A stretch of 64,000 bases of DNA from assembly GCF_003725695.1 (NCBI RefSeq), contig NZ_RJSE01000007.1, positions 186,001 to 250,000 of the forward strand, written 5' to 3'. This stretch comes from Nocardioides marmoriginsengisoli (GTDB taxonomy: Bacteria; Actinomycetota; Actinomycetes; Propionibacteriales; Nocardioidaceae). The notes beneath the pieces are model-generated. The model did no database searches. It was not told the DNA's origin and saw nothing but the letters and a program-made list of their open reading frames with translations. Of the stretch, positions 21,879 to 23,595 are shown piece by piece. The translations under genes and the position numbers were made by a program. Position 1 is the first letter of the stretch. Every line of letters begins with the position of its first letter.

Positions 21879-21970
21879 GGAGGCGTCGCCTAGTCCGGTT
21901 TATGGCGCCCGCCTGCTAAGCGGGTTCAGGTTAATCCCTGTCGGGGGTTCAAATCCCCCCGCCTCCGCCA
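21879..21970 (+). tRNA. tRNA-Ser (anticodon GCU)
   Basis: This class II tRNA has acceptor GGAGGCG perfectly paired with CGCCTCC, anticodon stem CCCGC/GCGGG around CTGCTAA (anticodon GCT), a long variable arm, T-loop GTTCAAA, discriminator G and an encoded CCA. Confidence 0.96.
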
Positions 21971-22012: not shown

Positions 22013-22035
22013 TGCTTCCCGCCGATTGCATGAAC

Positions 22036-22048
22036 TTGCAGGAAGGTG
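22036..22048 (+). promoter_or_regulatory. TTGCAGG-N3-GTG motif upstream of the secreted peptide gene
   Basis: TTGCAGGAAGGTG lies about 115 bp upstream of the peptide start. The same TTGCAGG-N3-GTG pattern recurs on the minus strand at 23539-23551 just upstream of the facing LuxR-type regulator. It sits within an imperfect inverted repeat (TTGCATGAA ... TTCATGAGGCAA). Shared control is a hypothesis. Confidence 0.35.
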
Positions 22049-22161
22049 CAGTGCATCTTCATGAGGCAACTGGTCTACTACCCCGCCCAGCCCGGAACAG
22101 GGAGGATAAGGACATCCGGCTGCGTCCCCCGAGTGGCCGGCACAATTGAAGGACACCACCC

Positions 22162-22368
22162 ATGAGAAAGCCGAAGTACCTCGCCCGCCTTGCGGTGGCC
22201 GCGATCCTCACCACCAGTGCCTTCGCAGGGATGTCGGGCCCCGCGAATGCTGCTGATGACAGCTCGACCGCCGATACCGCCACCACCAGTTGGAGCATTC
22301 CGAAGGGCGACGGCGGCACCAAGGGTGGTGGATACACCACCTTCCGATGGGACACCGGCTGGGGCTGA
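22162..22368 (+). CDS. Small secreted peptide precursor
   Basis: The 68-residue precursor has a classic signal peptide (basic MRKPKY, hydrophobic LAVAAILTTSAFAG, AxA site at PANA/ADD), leaving about 38 residues. The mature part is polar (ADDSSTADTATT) and then ends in an aromatic/glycine-rich tail, SWSIPKGDGGTKGGGYTTFR then WDTGWG. There are no cysteines, so no disulfide or lanthionine rings. A GAAGGA ribosome site lies 9 bases upstream of ATG 22162. It faces the LuxR-type regulator across a shared terminator. A signalling or modified peptide is possible; no family is recognised. Confidence 0.65.
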   Translation: MRKPKYLARLAVAAILTTSAFAGMSGPANAADDSSTADTATTSWSIPKGDGGTKGGGYTTFRWDTGWG

Positions 22369-22453
22369 CCCGGCGCACAACTGAAGACTCGAGACGAGGA
22401 CTTACGTCACCCCCCAGATCGTTTGTCACGCCTTCTCGGCCCGTCTCGTGACC

Positions 22454-22485
22454 AAGAGCGGAGAGCACCCCCACTCTCCGCTCTT
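22454..22485. terminator. Bidirectional terminator between peptide and regulator genes
   Basis: AAGAGCGGAGAG and CTCTCCGCTCTT form a perfect 12-bp stem with an 8-base loop, placed between the convergent genes at 22162-22368 and 22512-23525. Confidence 0.85.
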
Positions 22486-22511
22486 GTCATGTCCGGAGGC
22501 GGGTGCGGCCG

Positions 22512-23525
22512 TCAGTGGTCGGGGGAGTTCTTGGCGCGGGACTTCTCGCGGATCTCCTGCTGCGCGATCGCGTACCCGAGCTGGAACCGGGTCTCGACGC
22601 CGTACTCGGCCTTCAAGGACGCGATGTACCCGGCGTAGGTCCGGGTGCTGACTCCCACCCGCTTCGCGCTGGCGTTGTCGCTGTGCCCCTCGACCAGCAT
22701 CCGCACCGTCATGTTGTGGACGTCGTCGGCGATCTCGCGCTCGGTGGTCGACTCGCGGTCGGTGAAGACGTGCGCCCGCTCCCAGAACCGCTCGAAGATG
22801 TCGGCGAGGTAGGCGACCAGGCCGGGGTCGTGGATCACGACGGCGACATCGGTGCCGACCGCTCCGGGCACGATCGCCAGCCTCCGGTCGATCACGATCA
22901 GCCGGTTGAAGAACTCGTCCAGGGTGCGGACCTCGGCGCCCGACCGGGTGACCGCGTCCACGTAGTCGCGGGTGGCAACGCTCCGCCGCGCCGAGTGCTG
23001 GTAGAGCGTGCGCATCCGCACGCCCCGGCTCAACGCACGCTTGTCCCGCTCCAGGGCGACGTCCAGGATCTCCGGCGAGCGGGCGCCGTCGGGCTGGGCG
23101 GTGAGCAGCTCGTCCTCGGCGTCGCCGACGGCGGCGGTCAGGAAGCGGTTGATGTTCGGCAGCCCCCGGAGCTCGACGATCGGCAGGTCGCTGGGGGCGG
23201 TACGGCGGAACGCCAGCCCCAGCTCGGCGAAGGTGGTCGCCCAGCCGGTCGACTCGGCCAGGAGCTCGGCGGCGCGCTGACCCATCGGCGCGACCACGCG
23301 GGACTGCACGATCGCCGGGTCGACCGGGAGGTAGCGGTCGGTCGACGGGTCCAGGGCGAGCAGGCCCAGGTCGAGGAGGAACGCGAACGAGTCGTGGTCA
23401 CCGGCGCCCTCGGCGATCCGCCGGTCGTCACGCGCGATCGAGCCTTCGACGACGATCTTCTGGTAGAGGTCGCCTGCATCGTTCTGCAACAGCTCGCGGT
23501 GGCGGGCATCGAACTCAGCGCTCAT
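22512..23525 (-). CDS. LuxR-type HTH regulator with N-terminal TrmB/PLD-like sensor region
   Basis: The 337-residue protein has an N-terminal helical/winged-helix-like part (about 35-110), then a central phospholipase-D-like, TrmB-style region (about 130-245: VALERDKRALSRGVRMRTLY, then RLIVIDRRLAIVPG). A C-terminal LuxR-type HTH follows (about 270-325: MTVRMLVEGHSDNASAKRVG, STRTYAGYIASLKAEYG). This architecture is typical of an actinomycete regulator group with unknown ligands. It faces the secreted peptide gene across a shared terminator and carries the same TTGCAGG-N3-GTG motif in its promoter. Confidence 0.75.
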   Translation of the reverse strand: MSAEFDARHRELLQNDAGDLYQKIVVEGSIARDDRRIAEGAGDHDSFAFLLDLGLLALDPSTDRYLPVDPAIVQSRVVAPMGQRAAELLAESTGWATTFAELGLAFRRTAPSDLPIVELRGLPNINRFLTAAVGDAEDELLTAQPDGARSPEILDVALERDKRALSRGVRMRTLYQHSARRSVATRDYVDAVTRSGAEVRTLDEFFNRLIVIDRRLAIVPGAVGTDVAVVIHDPGLVAYLADIFERFWERAHVFTDRESTTEREIADDVHNMTVRMLVEGHSDNASAKRVGVSTRTYAGYIASLKAEYGVETRFQLGYAIAQQEIREKSRAKNSPDH

Positions 23526-23538
23526 CTGTCCGATTATT

Positions 23539-23551
23539 CACAAACCTGCAA
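23539..23551 (-). promoter_or_regulatory. TTGCAGG-N3-GTG motif in the regulator promoter
   Basis: Minus-strand TTGCAGGTTTGTG lies 14-26 bp upstream of the regulator ATG, followed by an AT-rich GAATAAT that may be the -10. It matches the motif at 22036-22048. Confidence 0.35.
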
Positions 23552-23595
23552 CGCGTGGGTATCGACTAACCGGACAAGACCCGGTTCCACACGGA

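Follow-up and report, generated by a model that had tools for sequence, protein, structure and literature searches.

A secreted DxxW peptide and a convergent TrmB-like regulator in Nocardioides: a putative peptide autoinduction circuit

In Nocardioides marmoriginsengisoli, a gene encoding a small secreted peptide converges on a gene encoding a TrmB-like regulator, and we interpret the two as a peptide autoinduction circuit with a cytoplasmic receptor, a reading to which we would assign a probability of roughly three in four. The computed basis for it consists of the gene pairing, a conserved peptide core and its tandem repetition, an operator, the fold of the sensor domain, and covariation between peptide and regulator. 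Peptide binding, processing, re-import, contact between the regulator and the operator, and the sign of regulation are all inferred, and no experiment was done. The window is the whole stretch of DNA that was analyzed (64,000 nucleotides; contig NZ_RJSE01000007.1, positions 186,001 to 250,000). An initial annotation of it had proposed that the two genes form an undescribed signalling pair, and this proposal is supported, while actual sensing remains inferred. The family extends beyond that pair and reaches Streptomyces.

The peptide precursor and the regulator

The peptide gene (22162 to 22368, plus strand) encodes a precursor of 68 amino acids, and orthologues with a signal peptide and a D-x-[TSG]-W core occupy the equivalent position in about 60 genomes. 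The precursor reads MRKPKYLARLAVAAILTTSAFAGMSGPANA up to the predicted cleavage site and ADDSSTADTATTSWSIPKGDGGTKGGGYTTFRWDTGWG beyond it and is a typical Sec precursor, with a basic n-region, a hydrophobic core, and a cleavage site between ANA and AD. The mature part as read from the sequence, with cleavage only predicted, has 38 residues (22252 to 22365, plus strand) and ends in YTTFRWDTGWG. The initial annotation was therefore right to describe a clean, cysteine-free signal-peptide precursor with a 38-residue mature part that is convergent to the regulator gene (22512 to 23525, minus strand). Its emphasis on an aromatic and glycine-rich tail was misplaced, since the conserved part is instead the DxxW core, which in the window is DTGWG (residues 64 to 68; 22351 to 22365, plus strand) and which is conserved or tandemly repeated in orthologues and paralogues.

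Between the two genes lies a perfect 13-bp inverted repeat (22453 to 22486, with arms at 22453 to 22465 and 22474 to 22486) that has an 8-nt loop and a fold z of -6.2. The common bidirectional terminator claimed for this site can be graded as probable on these grounds, but a T-tract is absent. The locus is flanked by a tRNA-Ser(GCT) gene (21879 to 21970) and a gene for a small membrane protein upstream of the peptide gene and by a PEP carboxykinase gene on the other side. None of the flanking genes encodes a modification enzyme of the kind looked for by the RiPP/lanthipeptide criterion, and no gene for a dedicated protease or transporter is linked to the pair.

It is conceivable that the secreted peptide has an antimicrobial or antagonistic function and that the regulator is no more than a local regulator of the peptide gene. 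The mature parts are small and secreted and are sometimes Trp/Gly-rich or cysteine containing (L021, L044, and L045), which would suit such a role, but immunity, transporter, and modification genes are all lacking at the locus. A core of only four residues within varying flanks, mature parts that in some cases have about 10 residues, and residue-level covariation with the sensor domain of the regulator also argue against this possibility, which we regard as very unlikely.

The regulator (337 amino acids) was modeled with AlphaFold2 at a mean pLDDT of 85.9. The model comprises an N-terminal winged helix-turn-helix (HTH), a long helix (residues 70 to 108), an alpha/beta domain (113 to 256) that is the putative sensor, and a helical C-terminal HTH-like unit (helices within 259 to 333). 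Over its whole chain, the regulator is best matched by archaeal TrmBL2 (profile E of 1e-4; Foldseek E of 4e-15), and the middle domain has the PLD/Nuc fold (Z of 18.4; 2.1 Å over 135 residues). The assignment to the TrmB type in the initial annotation is thus borne out by the modeled domains as well as by the profile and Foldseek matches, with Pfam TbsP_N and PLDc_2 hits below the cutoff only. The catalytic HxK pattern of PLD enzymes was not seen in the regulator alignment, which would be consistent with a sensing and not an enzymatic role, and the domain make-up of the model predicts a cytoplasmic protein. Like TrmB and TrmBL2, the regulator has a winged HTH followed by a PLD-like effector domain, but it is bacterial, carries an extra C-terminal HTH, and has a neighboring secreted peptide as its probable ligand instead of a sugar. 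The C-terminal HTH looks similar to that of LuxR-type quorum regulators and LuxR solos. However, it is not recognized by Pfam (no GerE match), and no autoinducer-binding domain was found by Pfam at E<1, the corresponding region being PLD-like.

Conservation of the pair and covariation of core and sensor

When 84,980 species genomes were scanned once with the regulator as the query, 67 loci were recovered, almost all of which belong to Nocardioides and Marmoricola; the pair is conserved in about 60 genomes of these genera. At 59 of 63 loci, no more than 400 bp separate the regulator stop codon from a convergent, ATG-started ORF that has a signal-peptide-like N terminus and a D..W core. The identical filter applied elsewhere in the same 655 kb returned two hits, one of which is the L060 peptide itself, displaced by 1.5 kb, leaving about one that is unrelated. 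A peptide gene not conserved with the regulator would have refuted the signalling-pair proposal, and this outcome was not met. In L010, the peptide is present and the regulator frame is shifted. The peptide frames of L038 and L047 keep DTSWG but have seemingly lost the signal peptide, and these may be decaying genes or sequence errors.

Within the mature part, only the core is conserved (DTGWG, DTSWG, DTTWP, DITWG, DYTWG, DTAWE, and others). It often begins directly at the predicted signal-peptidase site in the Nocardioides and Marmoricola orthologues and lies at the extreme C terminus in window-like peptides. Because only the signal peptide and this four-residue core are conserved, nearly all matches in direct searches with the whole peptide were noise, and locus-based searching worked instead; none of the peptides tested belongs to a family in Pfam or NCBIfam. 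The core is repeated two or three times in L012, L014, L019, L023, L024, L026, L039, and L043, with one core type per precursor, as in the Nocardioides precursor L024 (DTSWG x3). Some Nocardioides peptides have two cysteines after the core (DTGWDCHSGC in L021, DTSWGCYSC in L044, and DSSWGCGGSC in L045) that could form a disulphide.

A profile (A1) built from 37 regulators and run on 296 sampled actinomycete genomes detected relatives in 134 of them, with 2 to 7 copies per Streptomyces-like genome listed; L066 is one Streptomyces case. The gene order differs by genus, being convergent in Nocardioides and usually divergent in Streptomyces, where the secreted precursors beside the regulator relatives contain 1 to 10 tandem copies of a single core type each. 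These include DSTW x10 (L164), DSGW x7 (L203), DSSW x5 (L188), DIAW x5 (L172), DVGW x4 (L177), DPGW x3 (L174), DTTW x3 (L207), and DLGW x2 (L189), along with DTVW in L165, L166, and L168 and still other cores. A DxxW precursor was found within 600 bp of 22 of the 35 regulator clusters scoring at least 150 bits, 3 of the 35 at 110 to 150 bits, and 0 of the 12 below; therefore, the pairing follows the subfamily of the regulator. Overall, there were 25 precursor hits in 98 kb near regulators versus 7 in 504 kb away from them. No peptide was detectable at the remaining 13 of the 35 high-scoring clusters or at most of the weaker relatives.

Several Streptomyces arrays (L164 to L169, L186 to L188, and L203) have two to five regulators with one common precursor, and the far end of most of them is occupied by a paralogue (“VLDG...”) that carries Ala as residue 161 and may be a second receptor of different specificity. 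Near an Actinomadura regulator relative, an ORF without a signal peptide (L063:6971) contains TLDSGWD.

The repeated cores also bear on a different account of the pair, in which the regulator recognizes the precursor within the cell that makes it, before processing or export, so that the circuit monitors secretion or dose and not population. A regulator that is cytoplasmic by its predicted domain make-up, the lack of a linked importer, and the survival of the core in L038 and L047 would all be compatible with precursor sensing. However, tandem cores in one precursor are best understood as a source of several short peptides, and signal peptides are retained in nearly all cases. We therefore consider sensing of the precursor to be unlikely, though it remains an outside chance, and prefer the autoinduction circuit.

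Covariation between the peptide and the regulator, a check proposed in the initial annotation, gave a positive result: the signal is concentrated in the PLD-like sensor domain, where residue 161 is the outlier column. When mapped on a tree of 62 regulators, the core shows about 19 changes. In a clade in which core residue 2 changes repeatedly to I, Y, or F, the co-changing regulator columns are located on helices 122 to 134 (23124 to 23162, minus strand) and 151 to 166 (23028 to 23075, minus strand) of this domain. The helix enrichment has a P value of 3e-4 in that clade, on which the regions were picked (post hoc), and, as one of several tests, it was replicated for the full core at P = 0.009 in the set that remained, which is separate from that clade.

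Residue 161, which is Asp in the window (codon at 23043 to 23045, minus strand), is the top column in two separate data sets and is the proposed specificity residue. In the first, Thr at core position 3 is accompanied by Glu in 13 of 15 cases and Ser, Gly, or Ala by Asp in 42 of 45; a likelihood scan for core residue 3 (T versus S/G), on a tree built without the sensor region concerned, gave column 161 an LR of 50.6, compared to 28.8 for the next of 124 columns. In the second, comprising 39 mostly Streptomyces pairs, Ser or Thr at core position 2 occurs with Asp161 in 27 of 27 cases, and P, I, L, V, D, or N occurs with a residue other than Asp in 10 of 12 (Fisher P of 1e-7; the next best of 317 columns, at 1.3e-3, is four orders of magnitude away). 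The obvious reading, which has not been shown, is that Asp161 faces the Ser/Thr hydroxyl and is replaced by V, G, A, S, or C when the ligand residue is hydrophobic. The phylogenetic independence of the covariation is limited, as there are too few supported switches for significance: only three pairs in Nocardioides and five in the Streptomyces set differ in core across well-supported branches, none in the opposite direction (sign-test P of about 0.25). The strength of the result is that the same column wins in two separate sets. A scan for Gly at core residue 3 versus the rest yielded no outlier column, only clade-defining ones.

The TGCA operator

The motif TTGCAGG-N3-GTG, which had been claimed for both promoters, is present at 22036 (plus strand) and 23551 (minus strand), giving two copies in the window versus 0.03 expected. 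Commonness of the motif elsewhere in the genome would have spoken against the pair, and it is not common in other promoters: there are 5 copies in the 4.46-Mb genome, of which the other three are inside long ORFs. Since only the two promoters qualify in the window genome, it was rejected as a regulon marker. Promoter alignment reveals that it is part of a larger TGCA array that belongs to the peptide promoter, with boxes at 22027, 22037, 22047, and 22052. The operator, as defined from orthologous promoters and a whole-genome pattern search, has the form TGCA-N6-TGCA-N6-TGCA-N-TGCA plus a conserved TTCATGAGG (22027 to 22066, plus strand).

The pattern TGCA-N6-TGCA-N-TGCA is found in 45 of 61 orthologous peptide promoters, 28 of which have the four-box form, against a mean of 0.01 per set of shuffled promoters. 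The corresponding motif in the window's regulator promoter is a weak, degenerate single TGCA-N6-TG site (TTGCAGGTTTGTG; 23539 to 23552, minus strand), one copy of which is recognizable in each regulator promoter of the window's own clade only (related form in L001 to L005). Autoregulation of the regulator was rejected as a general feature, as the site was not found in regulator promoters outside this clade and the full pattern occurs in 0 of 62.

In nearly all promoters with the pattern, the operator starts 101 to 125 bp before the peptide ATG, and in 23 orthologues from Nocardioides the distance from the operator start to a GA[CG]AAT-like element resembling a -10 region is exactly 64 bp. The probable -10 region in the window (GAGGATA; 22102 to 22108, plus strand) is identified by inspection of the letters alone. 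The fixed upstream position of the operator suggests activation, although this is an inference, and binding of the regulator to the operator is also inferred and has not been shown. TGCAN6TGCANTGCA has a single exact copy in the whole window genome, and the DNA pattern searched alone in relatives retrieves further DxxW peptides.

A conserved palindromic site, TGCA-N6-TGCA-N-TGCA-N6-TGCA, was found in Kribbella-like genomes (L105, L106, L109, L111, and L112) with neither an A1-type regulator nor a DxxW peptide beside it. We set these sites aside as those of another factor with a similar site.

Such sites, together with the absence of the operator from 16 of the 61 peptide promoters, leave some room for an account in which the operator belongs to another regulator, the TrmB-like protein controls something else, and the neighboring genes are merely syntenic. 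The covariation of core and sensor and the recurrence of the pairing in another genus, where the genes are arranged differently, both argue against it, and we give it very little credence. Mere synteny, precursor sensing, and an antimicrobial role are each less likely than the autoinduction circuit.

Proposed circuit, known systems, and candidate targets

In the proposed autoinduction circuit, the precursor would be exported by Sec and cut by extracellular proteolysis to a short peptide with the D-x-x-W core, which could re-enter the cell through a general oligopeptide permease; the window genome encodes five SBP_bac_5 oligopeptide-binding proteins. The core peptide would then be bound by the PLD-like sensor domain, with residue 161 reading the second or third core residue. 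Once liganded, the regulator may act at the TGCA operator to control the peptide gene, with activation the likeliest outcome; in some relatives, secreted protease genes may be controlled as well. In Streptomyces, the oligopeptide permease BldK and an extracellular signal are required for aerial growth. The BldK-imported signal is only a possible place to look, as no link with DxxW peptides has been shown.

The RRNPP(A) systems of Bacillota (PlcR-PapR, NprR-NprX, Rap-Phr, and Rgg-SHP), like the window pair, have a small Sec-type propeptide beside a cytoplasmic regulator. In these systems, a short signal is released from the mature part, some precursors have tandem signal copies, and the targets of NprR and PlcR include exoproteases. 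The window pair differs in having a D-x-x-W core, in belonging to Actinomycetota, and in its receptor, which combines a TrmB-like winged HTH, a PLD-like domain, and a C-terminal HTH. The RRNPP signature calls for a propeptide of 10 to 100 amino acids adjoining the gene for a receptor of 250 to 500 amino acids with tetratricopeptide repeats (PMC10075063). The secreted 68-amino-acid propeptide, its adjacency, and the 337-amino-acid receptor meet this signature, but no tetratricopeptide repeats were found in the regulator by Pfam or in the AlphaFold2 model (winged HTH, long helix, PLD-like domain, and HTH). By analogy, the circuit would thus share the logic of NprR and PlcR with unrelated parts.

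Signals in Actinomycetota are typically enzyme-made small molecules, oligopeptides being the rule in Bacillota (2023 survey; PMC10075063), and a 2024 study of a Streptomyces isolate reported no strong signalling-peptide candidates (PMC11019849). We found no description of DxxW peptides or of TrmB-like peptide receptors in actinobacteria in the full-text literature searched, which lacked most subscription journals and preprints, so that an earlier report is not excluded. Peptide signalling through intracellular receptors is already known, and we rate the novelty here as one of unrelated parts in a new phylum. We also lean, if only slightly, toward a broader view in which DxxW peptides and TrmB-like receptors are a class-wide, multichannel pheromone language of Actinomycetes without common descent with RRNPP, in which core residues 2 and 3 and receptor residue 161 set the specificity, several insulated channels coexist within a single Streptomyces genome, and extracellular proteolysis, perhaps also development, is controlled. 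A DxxW peptide/receptor family in Nocardioides and Streptomyces would give Actinomycetota a genetically encoded peptide code in which both the signal sequences and the residue governing specificity are predicted, so that synthetic peptides of four to six residues could be tested at once. The family may also provide access to secreted proteases, to silent clusters, and to those developmental signals of Streptomyces that are extracellular and have yet to be identified.

In relatives, the operator pattern is also found just upstream of the start codons of secreted protease genes. It precedes four S53 sedolisins (L122, L245, L247, and L249; kumamolisin by phmmer), an M6 InhA protease (L253), and an HEWHE-containing secreted protein (L123 and L246). 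In one more S53 orthologue, the fifth (G018), the site has two boxes and lies at -151. The upstream regions of nine S53 orthologues from the genus were read, and TGCA-N6-TGCA is present in five of them; three Kribbella-like orthologues have none. No close S53 orthologue was found in the window's own genome, and S53 protease was rejected as a target there; therefore, the protease targets are candidates in relatives only. For the second secreted protein, which resembles a metallopeptidase, G004 was the only genome with a match apart from the G016 query.

Two further operator sites lie near genes of other kinds. A perfect TGCAGGAAGGTGCACTGCA operator (L117:1501, in G011) is located 27 bp upstream of a gene that, judging by eye, we take to be pafA-like (Pup ligase), and it overlaps another ORF. 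At L244:1537 (G007), the operator is in a divergent intergenic region before a gene for a small protein, presumably similar to the B12-binding subunit of methylmalonyl-CoA mutase, again by eye.
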